A program made the position numbers and the translations under genes. Source: a virus. Taken from it: a stretch of DNA of 44,257 nt. Below the pieces are notes generated by a model that saw only the letters and a program-made list of their open reading frames with translations, was not told where the DNA came from and made no database searches. The stretch spans positions 1 through 44,257 of the IMG/VR virus record IMGVR_UViG_3300006802_000171; one strand, written 5' to 3'. Within the stretch, counting starts at the first letter, position 1. Each line of letters opens with the position of its first letter. Of this stretch, positions 289 through 5,219 are shown in pieces.

Positions 289-463
289 TAAAAACCTCAT
301 GTTTTGTAATTGTCCAATCGCAAGCATCTTCCTCAGGTGGGAGGAAGAATTCAAGATAACGGTGTGTGGGTTCGTACGAAAAATAAAGTTCTTCACCTGT
401 AATATGATTGGTAACCTTATAAATTGTAAATGTAGGCTCTATGTTATGTTTATTAGATTCCAT
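278..463 (-). CDS. Hypothetical 61-aa protein
   Basis: The 61-residue protein starts at an ATG that overlaps the stop of the polymerase palm fragment by 11 bases, so it is probably coupled to that gene. The N-terminal half (FTIYKVTNHITGEELYF) looks like a short beta hairpin, and the C-terminal half is acidic (PPEEDACDW). No catalytic motif or known family is recognised. Its own stop overlaps the start of the next small gene. It may be one of the many small early proteins phages carry near replication genes, but that is inferred from position only. Confidence 0.6.
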   Translation of the reverse strand: MESNKHNIEPTFTIYKVTNHITGEELYFSYEPTHRYLEFFLPPEEDACDWTITKHEVFNAI

Positions 464-1595
464 CTAAATATTCCTTAATCTCATCCCAGTTAGTAATAAT
501 TCGATCTCTTTTCATTTCAACTTCAACTCCATCCCCGAAGCTTCGTCCAACAATAGTTTCCACATCAAGAGGAACATCCAAGGCCACGCCAAACGTGTGC
601 ATCACCGGGTTCTCTATCATATGATAGTGGATGATGTCCAAAAATTCTTCTAGCTCGTTGGGTGGTGATACGCCCTCTAAAGAGTCGTGGACAGTAGCTA
701 CAATTCTAGCTCTCATCTTTCTTTTTCGAAGCTCATCATTAATTCCTTTGATTGCACACAAAAGAATATCAGAGGCGGGTGACTGGATCGTGAAGTTAAG
801 GCCCTGCCGGAGTGCTCTTGCTACTACTTTCTTATCAGGTGATCTTACATTATCAAGTTTTCTGCGTCTACCAAAAATAGAGTAGGCATATTCATTTTCT
901 CTAATAAAATTATTAACAAAGTCCATATACCTTGGGACGGCTGGGTATGCTCTGTACCACTTTTGGATTACGGACTCTGCTCTTTTGATTTGGATATTTC
1001 GTTTGCGTGCGAGAGTATAAGCTGTTCCTCCGTAGACAACAAGGAATGAGGCTTCTTTAGCGTCTTGTCGTTCATCCGTAGTAACAAGATCAATTGCCTT
1101 GTTCTCGCAGAGTGACCCAGAGTAAGAATGAAGATCAACCCCATCAACAAATGCTTTTTGCATATTGTGCTCTTTGGAGATATGAGAGAGCACACGCAAT
1201 TCCATTCCCGAATAGTCAGTAGTGACAAACACCCAATCATCAGGAGCGCAAAATACTCTACGAACATTGGCAATATCCGATTCTCTAGGAAGAGTATGGA
1301 AGCTCACACCCTTCTTTATTTTCTTAGCCTGGTTTAATACATAAGCACCGCAGGAAAGTCTTCCAGAAACAGTCCCATCAAAATTAAACTTGCAGTAAAT
1401 CTTATTTTCTTCATTAACTTTTAAAGCTTTTTTAGTTCCTTGAATATAGGTCTTGTAAAGCTTACTACTTTTTCTAAGCTCTAGAAGAGACTGAATGAAA
1501 TCATAAGTTTTGTTCAGATGCTCATCAGTATGCTCCTTAATACGAGCTATACTAGTGCTTCTATCTAATTTCTTTTCTTTCCAGTTCCTAGCCAT
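453..1595 (-). CDS. polA (C-terminal fragment): DNA polymerase family A, fingers/palm fragment
   Basis: This 380-aa ORF holds the nucleotide-polymerising part of a family A DNA polymerase. Thumb-to-palm sequence LLELRKSSKLYKTY is at about residues 37-50. Motif A is DYSGMELRVLSH (127-138), giving the first metal-binding Asp127. The fingers motif B keeps R176, K180, F184 and YG (188-189). The Gln-containing NFTIQSPASDI is at 267-277, and motif C is VHDSLE (302-307) with the second Asp304; family members usually have HDE here, so Ser replaces Glu. There is no exonuclease domain: the upstream parts lie in two other ORFs (2589-3656 and 1835-2326). The ATG is the first possible start after an in-frame stop, and no close Shine-Dalgarno is visible; TATAAT lies directly before it. 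All catalytic residues are present, so it is probably active, perhaps only when assembled with the other pieces. Confidence 0.93.
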   Translation of the reverse strand: MARNWKEKKLDRSTSIARIKEHTDEHLNKTYDFIQSLLELRKSSKLYKTYIQGTKKALKVNEENKIYCKFNFDGTVSGRLSCGAYVLNQAKKIKKGVSFHTLPRESDIANVRRVFCAPDDWVFVTTDYSGMELRVLSHISKEHNMQKAFVDGVDLHSYSGSLCENKAIDLVTTDERQDAKEASFLVVYGGTAYTLARKRNIQIKRAESVIQKWYRAYPAVPRYMDFVNNFIRENEYAYSIFGRRRKLDNVRSPDKKVVARALRQGLNFTIQSPASDILLCAIKGINDELRKRKMRARIVATVHDSLEGVSPPNELEEFLDIIHYHMIENPVMHTFGVALDVPLDVETIVGRSFGDGVEVEMKRDRIITNWDEIKEYLDGI

Positions 1596-1617
1596 TATTA
1601 TAATCTGGTTCGCTTAC

Positions 1618-1845
1618 CTAATCAGCCTCTAGATCATAGTCATTTTCTCTACCTTCACAATAACCACAATCATATCCGGCTTCATAACCACAATTCTCAC
1701 CACTCTCGTAACCTTCCTCATGAGCTTTTTCTGTCAACAACATAATAAGATCCACTACTCTCTTAAATCTTGAATCTTTCATTTTACTAGGAACTTTCAT
1801 TCCTGTCTCTTTTAATTTCTCAATAGCTTCTTTTCTAGTTATCAT
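1618..1845 (-). CDS. Small protein lying between polymerase fragments (75 aa)
   Basis: This 75-aa ORF lies between the thumb fragment and the palm fragment of the polymerase. It has a strong Shine-Dalgarno (AAGGAG, six bases before ATG) and overlaps the end of the upstream polymerase piece by 11 bases. The N-terminal 45 residues are basic and helical (ITRKEAIEKLKETG); the C-terminal part is a Gly/Tyr/acidic tail with repeated GY dipeptides (EGYESGENCGYEAGYDCGY) and three cysteines. It resembles no part of family A polymerases, no homing endonuclease and no intein. Whether it is a polymerase accessory subunit, a linker or an unrelated insertion cannot be decided from sequence. Confidence 0.75.
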   Translation of the reverse strand: MITRKEAIEKLKETGMKVPSKMKDSRFKRVVDLIMLLTEKAHEEGYESGENCGYEAGYDCGYCEGRENDYDLEAD

Positions 1846-2326
1846 TTTTGCTCCTTTTGTTCATCTCTTCTTCAATATCTTCCAATAGATTCTTTAAACA
1901 CTCCTCGTTTACAGATGGATTGTCTTCTTCTGTGAAGACAGAGGGATACATTTGAAACCCTTTCTCATCTGTGAAGAGGATCTTTACAATATCATCGTTT
2001 GAACCTACGTTATACTTCTGGCTAACTTCCTTATACTCATACAAACGATCCTCGTCGTCTGTGTTTCTATCCTGCAAGTCCTTTCCAACCTCGTCAAGAG
2101 CTTTAAGACTTACATCTACACCATTATACTCAATCTCAGCAAAGTCTGGTGTGAGAGGCATAACCAAGTTCTCAATAAGATTCCAACGATCTTGCTTCTC
2201 TAGTTCCTCTTTCAGTGTTCTAAATATCTTGAGAGTGAAATATGTATCCCATGCATTTCCGCGAATACACTCTGAGATAGACATATTCTCCCAGTCGAAC
2301 GATTCCGGGTTAAGAATTGTTAGCAT
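1835..2326 (-). CDS. polA (middle fragment): DNA polymerase family A, end of exonuclease plus thumb fragment
   Basis: The 163-aa product is the middle of a family A polymerase. Residues about 10-35 (FDWENMS…GNAWDTYFTLKIF) match the last helix of the DnaQ-like 3'-5' exonuclease, with D27 at the ExoIII position, although the usual Tyr four residues before it is Gly. Residues about 50-75 (LVMPLTPDFAEIEYNGVDV) match the family signature at the start of the thumb, and YNVGSNDDIVKILF (about 105-118) matches the FNxxSxxQLxxxLF segment. It starts at ATGCTAA, overlapping the end of the 95-aa ORF, with AAGGTG seven bases upstream, so it is set up to be translated on its own. It ends in the thumb loop, just before the sequence taken up by the next polymerase fragment. 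Confidence 0.85.
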   Translation of the reverse strand: MLTILNPESFDWENMSISECIRGNAWDTYFTLKIFRTLKEELEKQDRWNLIENLVMPLTPDFAEIEYNGVDVSLKALDEVGKDLQDRNTDDEDRLYEYKEVSQKYNVGSNDDIVKILFTDEKGFQMYPSVFTEEDNPSVNEECLKNLLEDIEEEMNKRSKNDN

Positions 2327-2607
2327 TCAAGCACCTTTAAAAGATCCTCTAATTCATCTTGGATATCACCAAAACTACCATATGAATGTTTCTTTACACA
2401 TTTAAGGAACTTAGAAGAAACTTCCAATAGTTTATAATAACGTTTATTCCTATTCTCAAGCATATTTATAAACGTTAGAATATCTTCTTTATACTCCTCT
2501 GAACTAAAATTATCCTTAGCCAAAGTTGGATGCTCCAGCCCAAAAATAAGACGCTCCACTAAATCTTTAACTAATCTTGTAATAACCCCTAACTCTTTTT
2601 CAGACAT
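2320..2607 (-). CDS. Small helical protein lying between polymerase fragments (95 aa)
   Basis: This 95-aa ORF sits between the exonuclease fragment and the thumb fragment. It overlaps the upstream ORF by 19 bases and the downstream one by 7. The protein is predicted all-helical and charged (SEKELGVITRLVKDLVERL at the N-terminus, DIQDELEDLLKVLEC at the end) with two cysteines. No homing-endonuclease, intein or polymerase motif is visible. A purine-rich GAGG lies about 12 bases before the ATG, a poor fit, so coupling to the upstream gene is likely. Function unknown. Its conserved place inside a broken polymerase gene would be the first thing to look for in relatives. Confidence 0.75.
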   Translation of the reverse strand: MSEKELGVITRLVKDLVERLIFGLEHPTLAKDNFSSEEYKEDILTFINMLENRNKRYYKLLEVSSKFLKCVKKHSYGSFGDIQDELEDLLKVLEC

Positions 2608-3656
2608 AATTCCGTAACCTCATCTGCAAAATACTGTTGCGTAACATCCAACAACCTGTTTGGAGTATTCTCATCTACTTCATGCGCTAAGATCGCCGTG
2701 TCTATTACATTTTTATAATCCCTAATACCTTCATGAATTAGAAATTTAAGATCAAACTTAGCATTATGAAACACTTTATAATTATTAGGATTTCCCAAAA
2801 CCGGGCGTAAAAAGTTTTTTATCGAAATAATATCTGTCTCCATTCCACCATCTACTAAATCAGGGTGGAATGGAGAATGCTTATGCCTGAATGGTATTAC
2901 AAGAGTTTGTATTGGACTTCCCCAGGAAAGGGATATGGTTGTTATAACATTCTTTTTAAAGTCTAAACCATTAGTTTCTATATCAATCGCAATAGCTTCT
3001 GTTGTATCAAACAAAAATCTATAATTATCTAAATCTTTAGTGGTCTCCAAAACTTCATAGCTAAATTCAGATTTAGATGTCTTTTGAAGTATATGCCTAT
3101 TGTAACCATTCCTAATATCTAATTCAAAAAGAAATCTATTTTTAGGTTCATTAATAACCTGGAATGGGTGGAATACAGGGACCACTACACACTCATGCCC
3201 ATTTGGGGAAGTGTAAGGAAACGACTTTCCTCTCTTAGCATTCGGGCCAGTTAAACCTTTTTTAGCTATCACCATCTCCATTGGGAGAGCGCCACACGCG
3301 AAGATTAATTTAGGCTTTATCCTATCTATAGTTGCTTCTACGTGAGTTCTACAGATTTTCTTATCATCCGTTTTCATGTCCTTGGCTTTCACCGTAGGAC
3401 ACTTCACTGAAGCGGCAAACTCGAACTTACACTCCCCTTCTAGGGTTCCTAGAATTTCAACAAGCAGATCTATATCCCGAGCGGAAAACGCAACCTTCTC
3501 ACCAGTAAAACTACTAGTTTTTAGTGAGTCAGATAAAAATAATACGTCAGCCTCGGAACATTTCTCATAATCTAAATAGCAATGAAAAGGTTTACTTTTC
3601 TCTAGTATAGAACACCCTTCACACAAAGGGTTATATTTCTTATCCCTATTGAACAC
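2589..3656 (-). CDS. polA (N-terminal fragment): Uracil-DNA-glycosylase-like domain fused to polymerase 3'-5' exonuclease
   Basis: The 355-aa ORF joins two domains. Residues about 1-185 look like a family 4/5-type (Fe-S) uracil-DNA glycosylase: cysteines C12, C15, C86 and C102 are placed like the four cluster ligands, IKPKLIFACGALP (113-125) is a typical core strand, and FHPFQVI (162-168) matches the HPS-type motif. The usual GEAPG active-site loop reads LSDSLKTSS, so glycosylase activity is doubtful. Residues about 205-350 are a DnaQ-like 3'-5' exonuclease with ExoI DIETNG (225-230) and ExoII HNAKFDLKF (297-305); ExoIII is on the next polymerase ORF. Some phage polymerases, such as that of SPO1, carry a UDG-like N-terminus. 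The start is GTG 3656 with AGGT eight bases upstream. The ORF ends in a loop right after the exonuclease core. Confidence 0.88.
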   Translation of the reverse strand: MFNRDKKYNPLCEGCSILEKSKPFHCYLDYEKCSEADVLFLSDSLKTSSFTGEKVAFSARDIDLLVEILGTLEGECKFEFAASVKCPTVKAKDMKTDDKKICRTHVEATIDRIKPKLIFACGALPMEMVIAKKGLTGPNAKRGKSFPYTSPNGHECVVVPVFHPFQVINEPKNRFLFELDIRNGYNRHILQKTSKSEFSYEVLETTKDLDNYRFLFDTTEAIAIDIETNGLDFKKNVITTISLSWGSPIQTLVIPFRHKHSPFHPDLVDGGMETDIISIKNFLRPVLGNPNNYKVFHNAKFDLKFLIHEGIRDYKNVIDTAILAHEVDENTPNRLLDVTQQYFADEVTELCLKKS

Positions 3657-3667
3657 TATTATAACCT

Positions 3668-4027
3668 ATGGGAAAATCCAAGCATTATATTGACAACAAA
3701 AGATTTGAATATTTAATAAAACTTTACTTAAAAAATCCTTCATCTTGCGAGGATGAATTATTCAAACTATTTGATCTTCTAATATCTAATATAATCACCG
3801 GGTTTAATTTTAGGGTAGAGGCGGAAGATGCTAAACAAGATTGCTTCATTCTAGTCCTAGAAACTCTTACTAAATTTAAACCTTCAAAGGGCAGCGCATT
3901 CAACTACTTCACCACTGTTATTATTAATCGTATAAACAAATGCTGGAAGGACGAGAACCGCTACCGGGAAAAGATTAATAACTATATTAGTAGAATGTCC
4001 TCATACTATAACCCTAGTTCACTATAG
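3668..4027 (+). CDS. gp55: Late-transcription sigma factor, T4 gp55-like
   Basis: One of only two plus-strand genes. The 119-aa protein matches the region 2 part of small phage sigma factors: DAKQDCFILVLETLTKFKPS followed by AFNYFTTVIINRINKCW (about residues 53-92) is the helix pair that binds the RNA polymerase beta' coiled coil and the -10 element. There is no region 4, as in T4 gp55, which directs the host polymerase to TATAAATA-type late promoters with the help of the sliding clamp. The start codon is only 11 bases from the divergent GTG of the polymerase N-terminal fragment and no Shine-Dalgarno precedes it; TATTATAACCT lies directly upstream. The 3' end overlaps the convergent thioredoxin-like gene by 22 bases. 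It probably switches on the structural genes in this window. Confidence 0.8.
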   Translation: MGKSKHYIDNKRFEYLIKLYLKNPSSCEDELFKLFDLLISNIITGFNFRVEAEDAKQDCFILVLETLTKFKPSKGSAFNYFTTVIINRINKCWKDENRYREKINNYISRMSSYYNPSSL

Positions 4028-4338
4028 ATTAGGGGGATATAATCTGTAATGCGGCGCTCCCCTGTGCTTGACACAGTAACTAAGGTAGGAGCTTTCTTTA
4101 CATCAAATACCAGGAACGAATGAGGCATATTCATGCTATCAACAATATATAAAGGAATCCCTGTATCATAGCGTTCTTTTATTTCTTCCACTAGATCTTT
4201 ACAGTAAGGACACCATAGAGACGTATAAAGTATAAAGATACGCTCTTTTGTTTTCTTTTGATTCTTAATTAGTTTGTTTAATGAGTTTTCAGTATCAAGA
4301 AAATGGATATAGTTTTGTAATTCTGTGTTAGTCATCAT
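4006..4338 (-). CDS. Thioredoxin/glutaredoxin-like protein
   Basis: The 110-aa protein has a thioredoxin fold signature: a beta strand (RIFILYTS) leading into the redox motif WCPYC at about residues 42-46, a charged helix after it, and KAPTLV with the cis-proline at about 82-87. CPYC is typical of glutaredoxins and phage thioredoxins such as T4 NrdC, which supply electrons to ribonucleotide reductase. About 30 extra residues precede the fold. No nrd gene lies in the window to confirm that partner. The start (ATGATGACTAA) overlaps the upstream gene's stop, implying coupling. The C-terminal end overlaps the sigma gene on the other strand. Confidence 0.8.
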   Translation of the reverse strand: MMTNTELQNYIHFLDTENSLNKLIKNQKKTKERIFILYTSLWCPYCKDLVEEIKERYDTGIPLYIVDSMNMPHSFLVFDVKKAPTLVTVSSTGERRITDYIPLIYSELGL

Positions 4339-4657
4339 TTGCTTCGGGGATATTAATTACAGGAATTTCGGATTGCTCTGCTGAAGCCTTTTTTTCCATC
4401 TCTTCAGCTTTTTCTTTTGCATACTCGATCGCTAGTTGGCGTAAATCCTCATTTATAGATTGGATACCTTTGAAAAATAAAGTTTTGTGGAAATCATCAT
4501 CAGATATACCATCTGGTTTAGCATAATCTTTGAAATTCTTAAAACTTTCCGTCTCTTCTTTACTCAACTTAATTTGAAACTTCATACGTCCTCTTTTTCT
4601 CTCAACTACTTTTATATCCCAACCAACACCATTGGTTTCTTCTTTATTTTCACTCAT
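4328..4657 (-). CDS. Hypothetical acidic/helical 109-aa protein
   Basis: No family is recognised. The N-terminus is hydrophilic, residues about 18-32 are strongly basic (VVERKRGRMKFQIKLS), and the C-terminal half is a long predicted helix with an alternating acidic/basic pattern (LRQLAIEYAKEKAEEMEKKA) ending in an acidic tail. It is about the size of T4 gp33, the late-transcription co-activator, and sits beside a gp55-like gene, but no sequence feature supports that identity and I do not claim it. The start codon is one base away from the divergent start codon of the nuclease gene. It overlaps the thioredoxin-like gene by 11 bases. Confidence 0.65.
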   Translation of the reverse strand: MSENKEETNGVGWDIKVVERKRGRMKFQIKLSKEETESFKNFKDYAKPDGISDDDFHKTLFFKGIQSINEDLRQLAIEYAKEKAEEMEKKASAEQSEIPVINIPEANDD

Positions 4658-4658
4658 T

Positions 4659-5219
4659 ATGTCCTCGTCGACCTATAATAGACCTACTATGAGAGATGTC
4701 TTCGATAAATCTAAAATTAATCCCCGTAAGCAGAAACGTGTAAACAGTAAAGTGAAAGGTAACTCATTTGAACGAAAAATCTGCAAATTACTAAACTCTA
4801 AGTTTAACACCAAGGAATTCTGTAGAAGTCCTGGTAGTGGGGCTTTTGGTACTACTCATAATCATTTACCTGAGGAATTTAAAGTGTATGGTGATTTAAT
4901 TACACCTAAAAACTTCAAATTCATTATAGAGTGTAAGAAAGGTTATAATAGCGAGTCCATCGGCAATTTTTTCAAGCCAAACAGCCAACTGAGGAAATTT
5001 ACCCGACAGGCAGAAAAAGACGCCAAAAAATCAGGCCGTGAGGCTATGATAGTATTTCAACAAGATAGAAGTTTAATATTAGTTATAACTAAAGAAAATA
5101 CATTTCCTAATACACTAGAACATATAACTTATAAAGATAAATCTAATTCGTACAACATTCATATTCTTGATGATCTTCTTTTATTAGATAATTATTATTT
5201 TTTTGAAGGATGTTATTAA
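4659..5219 (+). CDS. PD-(D/E)XK nuclease, Holliday-junction resolvase-like
   Basis: The protein has the layout of Hjc-type archaeal/phage Holliday junction resolvases: a basic N-terminus (NPRKQKRVNSKVKGNSFER) with a conserved Glu in KGNSFERKI, an Arg-Ser-x-Gly-Ser segment (CRSPGSGAFG), then YGDLI supplying Asp and FIIECKKG supplying the E-x-K pair of the PD-(D/E)XK site. Such enzymes cut branched replication and packaging intermediates. I place the start at ATG 4659; ATG 4689 is also possible and ATG 4632 would run into the divergent gene. None has a Shine-Dalgarno. The last 77 bases overlap the convergent 800-aa gene, so the two transcripts would be antisense to each other there. Confidence 0.75.
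   Translation: MSSSTYNRPTMRDVFDKSKINPRKQKRVNSKVKGNSFERKICKLLNSKFNTKEFCRSPGSGAFGTTHNHLPEEFKVYGDLITPKNFKFIIECKKGYNSESIGNFFKPNSQLRKFTRQAEKDAKKSGREAMIVFQQDRSLILVITKENTFPNTLEHITYKDKSNSYNIHILDDLLLLDNYYFFEGCY

Follow-up and report, generated by a model that had tools for sequence, protein, structure and literature searches.

The family A DNA polymerase of this phage is very probably (probability about 0.8) a conserved three-gene enzyme, whose co-translated chains, designated N, M and C, would reassemble into one polymerase. The carriers are a widespread uncultured group of marine T4-like myophages. The window, that is the whole stretch analysed, was the full-length 44 kb record of virus IMGVR_UViG_3300006802_000171 (44,257 nt), and the polymerase genes lie at its low-coordinate end, all on the minus strand. 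Genes for T4-type major head, tail sheath, tail tube and baseplate wedge proteins were present in the same contig (structural matches to phrog_138, 4e-77, phrog_23, 1e-73, and phrog_219, 6e-42), and the phage was classed as a T4-like myophage. Bacterial genomes were searched for relatives in order to find the host, and none was found there.

Domain content of the three chains

The three ORFs that the initial annotation had assigned to the polymerase were real and correctly placed, with two ORFs between them, and its domain assignment was borne out by Pfam, PHROG and PDB profile matches. The N chain (positions 2589–3656, minus strand, 355 aa) contains a UDG-like domain, ExoI (D225, E227) and ExoII (D302), as assigned by Pfam/PHROG, a PDB profile search and conservation in 43 triples, and was matched to DNA_pol_A_exo1 in Pfam (E 7e-13). 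The M chain (1835–2326, minus strand, 163 aa) contains the ExoIII helix (D27), with Gly23 at the position of Klenow Y497, and the first part of the thumb; it gave a weak match to the start of DNA_pol_A (Pfam, 0.009) and matches to phrog_17 (8e-9) and to Klenow residues 484–617 (E 8e-9). The C chain (453–1595, minus strand, 380 aa) contains the remaining thumb, fingers and palm, and was identified as DNA_pol_A (PF00476, 1.5e-71; PDB profile match, 2e-54). Motif A (D127), motif B (R176/K180/F184/Y188) and motif C (H303-D304-S305) occur in this order within the PF00476 domain, which places the predicted enzyme in family A.

Four cysteines of Fe-S type in the UDG-like domain of N (C12, C15, C86 and C102) were kept in 43/43 triples. 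The region of the usual glycosylase motif reads LFLSDSL in this domain, and glycosylase activity is therefore doubtful.

When aligned to E. coli Pol I, N extended up to residue 459, M covered residues 484–617 and C began at residue 615. At the first break 22 residues were counted in the split proteins versus 24 in E. coli; at the second none was missing, and about 35 were extra (C-terminal end of M plus N-terminal end of C). A similar picture was obtained when the breaks were judged against intact phage relatives, and the earlier statement that almost nothing is missing at either break holds, as do the break positions. The exonuclease acids are shared out, with the equivalents of D355, E357 and D424 in N and that of D501 in M, and the thumb is shared out between M and C. 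Since one break interrupts the exonuclease site and the other the thumb, neither domain is complete within one chain.

AF2 gave good models for the fingers and palm of C, and a Foldseek search with the C model returned Bst Pol I (3e-23) and also Klenow Pol I. The first 112 residues of C were modelled poorly, and the confidence for M alone was too low for a fold search, as would be expected if these parts depend on a partner; shallow alignments may also account for the poor confidence.

Conservation of the split

A scan with C gave six relatives, all with the same three ORFs (6/6). Eighty loci came from a profile scan and a further 80 from a scan with M, together about 110 IMG/VR contigs by name, and 58 complete triples from the first scans, 43 of them distinct, were studied in depth. 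In every cleanly readable locus the pieces were separate ORFs, broken at the same two positions; the shared breaks that the initial annotation had proposed to check for were thus found in all 43 distinct complete triples, and an intact, fused polymerase ORF was encountered in none (0) of the cleanly readable loci, these triples included. This recurrence is more than chance, and the identical cuts in every readable relative indicate that the split is old and probably a working design. Identities between the window and the other triples were 45–54% for N, 42–52% for M and 47–52% for C, and pairwise distances of the three chains correlated at 0.86–0.91. Searches with PF00476 and PF00136 in 14 contigs of 44–111 kb, none of them known to be complete, gave one PolA and no PolB match in each.

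Locus L081 was left out of the fusion verdict because frames were broken throughout its contig; recoding was considered and rejected, as table 4 and TAG=Q left the frames closed, and the contig looks indel-ridden. In L011 (5581–5999) M has an internal deletion of about 27 codons and a frameshift that give two ORFs, by error or by true loss; a four-way split was accordingly rejected for this locus.

The ExoI D and E, ExoII D and ExoIII D (DEDD), the motif A D and E, the motif B R, K, F and Y and the motif C HD were present in 43/43 triples. The earlier claim that all motifs and exonuclease acids are present thus stood, with one refinement for the exonuclease: the ExoIII tyrosine (Klenow Y497, DEDDy) is Gly in 43/43 triples, and proofreading may therefore be weakened. 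This tyrosine is kept in several intact phage enzymes and in E. coli. Motif C reads HDS, which was also found in intact phage enzymes. Median dN/dS values were 0.10 for N, 0.05 for M and 0.05 for C (9–11 usable pairs each). The same breaks, the purifying selection and the conserved catalytic residues, together with the lack of an intact copy and of a family B polymerase in the long contigs, back the earlier view of a working multi-chain enzyme rather than decay.

Junctions and inserted genes

Junction 1 (N/M) was gapless in 26/43 triples, with N and M sharing one base (TAATG), and at junction 2 (M/C) the genes overlapped by 4 or 8 nt in 41/43, most often as GTGGGTAA. The remaining 17/43 had extra DNA at junction 1, with unrelated genes, some on the opposite strand; inserts comprised a 91-aa membrane-like ORF, a 2OG-Fe(II) oxygenase, a glycosyltransferase, a 62-aa ORF and reverse-strand ORFs. 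On a quick tree, on which the placement of the window is unsure, at least seven changes between the occupied and the empty state and at least 13 changes in the kind of insert were counted. Junction 1 is an insertion hot spot.

In the window, passenger ORF 1 (2320–2607, minus strand, 95 aa) occupies junction 1 and passenger ORF 2 (1618–1845, minus strand, 75 aa, with a Gly/Tyr/Glu-rich end) occupies junction 2, where a gene was otherwise present only in L010 among the 43 triples. Both were placed at the stop/start points, and the upstream chains were lengthened by a few residues. Passenger ORF 1 had no domain match in Pfam or PHROG, the sole match of passenger ORF 2 was a weak one to a PHROG of unknown function, and no relative of either was found in the viral contigs searched. 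Since the three genes abut in most relatives, the two small ORFs are best regarded as later passengers, and the idea that they form part of the arrangement was not supported. No endonuclease domain was detected in the window inserts or in the passengers of either orientation that were scanned, and no Rfam intron at the gathering threshold in the window or six insert-bearing relatives.

The reverse-strand ORFs at junction 1 (L015, L016, L019, L020, L024, L030, L043, L044, L050 and L055) belong to at least two families, one lipoprotein-like (164–182 aa) and a second with a GESIWNTY motif, of which several tandem copies occur in L011. About 30 bp, containing a CTATTATATAG box, separate them from the divergently oriented M.

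Expression signals and proposed mechanism

The transcript structure, assembly and activity of the three chains are predictions from sequence features. No N start was preceded by a Shine-Dalgarno sequence (0/43), and a TATTATA-type box was located at most 18 nt from the N start in 34/43 loci versus 0.6% of background windows; in the window the TTATAATA box (3657–3664, minus strand) lies directly before the N start codon as the probable promoter of a leaderless transcript. The missing Shine-Dalgarno sequence and the nearby box are signs of such a transcript, and suggest a promoter between N and a divergent sigma-like gene. These signs at the N starts (window 3656–3668) might help to identify the host group. 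Shine-Dalgarno sequences were present ahead of M in 20/26 gapless loci and ahead of C in 38/43 (internal ATG/GTG, 15%); the one claimed earlier for the middle ORF was confirmed as AAAGGTG ahead of ATG. A TATTATA-type box ahead of M was found in 8/17 loci with junction 1 occupied and in 0/26 with junction 1 empty, so that N and M are probably on separate transcripts where it is occupied.

We propose that the three chains are translated separately, from one transcript in most relatives. N would be expressed from its own, probably leaderless, promoter, and M and C by reinitiation or from their own Shine-Dalgarno sequences at the overlapping stop/start codons. The chains would then assemble non-covalently into one polymerase with 3′–5′ exonuclease, in which the exonuclease active site would be built jointly by N and M and the thumb by M and C. 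The junctions would tolerate gene insertion since every chain already has a gene of its own, and the two small ORFs of the window would be insertions at such tolerant junctions. A more specific version, which we put forward tentatively and consider less likely to be right than wrong, is an obligate three-chain replicative polymerase with the exonuclease site and the thumb assembled in trans, a remodelled, Tyr-less proofreading site and possibly the thioredoxin-fold protein encoded nearby as an accessory subunit; M would then be in contact with both activities, and could link copying to proofreading or switch between them.

Alternative explanations

Removal of the inserts from the RNA by self-splicing introns, to give a single chain as in SPO1, Bastille and other Herelleviridae, has a real basis, as homologous polymerase genes are interrupted by as many as three introns each (PMC11878797). 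It was nevertheless judged very improbable here, given that junction 1 is without an intervening base in 26/43 triples and yet changes frame (TAATG), that junction 2 is overlapping in 41/43, that the window and the six insert-bearing relatives gave no Rfam intron, and that the inserts are whole genes, in some cases on the opposite strand, situated at stop/start points. Programmed ribosomal frameshifting could, in the gapless relatives, yield a single chain from the ORFs, and the differing frames of N/M and M/C and the overlapping junctions would fit it; whole genes are, however, present in both junctions of the window and L010 and in junction 1 of 17/43 triples, several on the opposite strand, and at the M stop the sequence differs between loci (GGGTAA, GAGTAA, TCTAA, ATGA overlap) whereas the start codon and Shine-Dalgarno sequence are kept, so that this too appears highly unlikely. 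The expression signals and the gapless junctions together are a strong argument against both splicing and frameshifting.

A decaying or misassembled gene, a reading that has the broken copies in L011 and L081 in its favour, can hardly be reconciled with the recurrence of these breaks in about 110 contigs of many different samples, the low dN/dS values and the invariant catalytic residues. More credit, though still little, is due to the possibility that the chains are separate tools, with C as a minimal polymerase and N, or N plus M, as a stand-alone exonuclease or glycosylase-like factor: the palm and fingers of C were modelled confidently alone, and there are phage families annotated as ‘DNA polymerase exonuclease subunit’ (phrog_192), but the breaks cut the exonuclease site (N/M) and the thumb (M/C). 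Three chains that reassemble into one polymerase were thus retained as the preferred reading.

Comparison with known systems

A replicative polymerase is generally pictured as a single uninterrupted catalytic chain. The intact UDG/exonuclease family A phage polymerases of PHROG 17 (e.g. of Lysinibacillus phage LysYB1, Rhodobacter phage RcTiptonus and Gordonia phage MScarn) have the same domain order and motifs and could be aligned end to end, but are one chain, with a best identity to the C piece of about 31%, and several keep the ExoIII Tyr. E. coli Pol I (Klenow) has the same fold, and its catalytic residues map one to one except for Y497 and E883, but it is a single chain without the UDG-like domain.

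Among split genes, the two-piece family A polymerase of Methylophilales phages MEP401 and MEP402, with a small unknown ORF between the pieces, is common to most related metagenomic genomes, and its authors do not exclude an intron (PMC10580990). These are likewise marine phages with a polymerase split into ORFs, but there are two pieces and the break falls between positions equivalent to C-chain residues 88 and 121, just before motif A. In Bastillevirinae/Herelleviridae (SPO1, Bastille) the polymerase gene can be interrupted by one, two or three introns (PMC11878797), and a homologous polymerase similarly appears as several ORFs; there, however, splicing restores one chain, and the inserts carry homing endonucleases and intron cores that are absent here. 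Interrupted replicative polymerase genes of myophages are also found in T4-type Aeromonas phage 25, which has an intron in gene 43 (gp43, family B; PMC2993671), and in MIJ3, which has split PolB genes with an intein (PMC6892783), but these are family B genes tied to introns, inteins or homing endonucleases and not three conserved chains. Rhodothermus phage RM378, considered as a split family A precedent, was rejected, as its genome gave no PF00476 or PF01612 match. The earlier impression that nothing like this arrangement is known was therefore too broad, two-piece and intron-split versions having been published; no conserved three-chain family A polymerase was found in the literature searched, most subscription journals being outside its scope.

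A whole marine phage group appears to have kept the three-piece enzyme while its pieces diverged to about 42–54% identity, and never to have re-fused it. The breaks in the exonuclease loop and the thumb offer naturally evolved split sites for polymerase engineering and a direct test of cross-chain communication between proofreading and synthesis. Polymerase gene junctions act here as gene-insertion sites without homing endonucleases, and gene callers and polA-based virome surveys would see fragments.

Neighbouring genes

A thioredoxin-like protein is encoded just upstream of the polymerase in 41/43 loci (window 4006–4338, minus strand; L002 3829–4146; L005 3829–4149); it has WCPYC in the window and WD.. 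at the same place in most of the relatives listed. Host thioredoxin is the processivity factor of phage T7, and the neighbour was on this account treated as a lead and not as a finding: a role as a redox-dead accessory or processivity factor is conceivable. A search with PF09116 (T4 sliding clamp) gave no match, and the control was equally silent.

A small protein similar to sigma-70 region 2 (window 3668–4027, plus strand; L005 4142–4483, minus strand; Pfam E 4e-6) is encoded divergently from N, with about 11 bp between the two starts, and may represent a gp55-type late sigma factor. A RusA-like Holliday junction resolvase gene (window 4632–5219, plus strand; phrog_244, E 1e-21) lies between the polymerase and the structural genes, and a similar ORF was present in L002 and L005.
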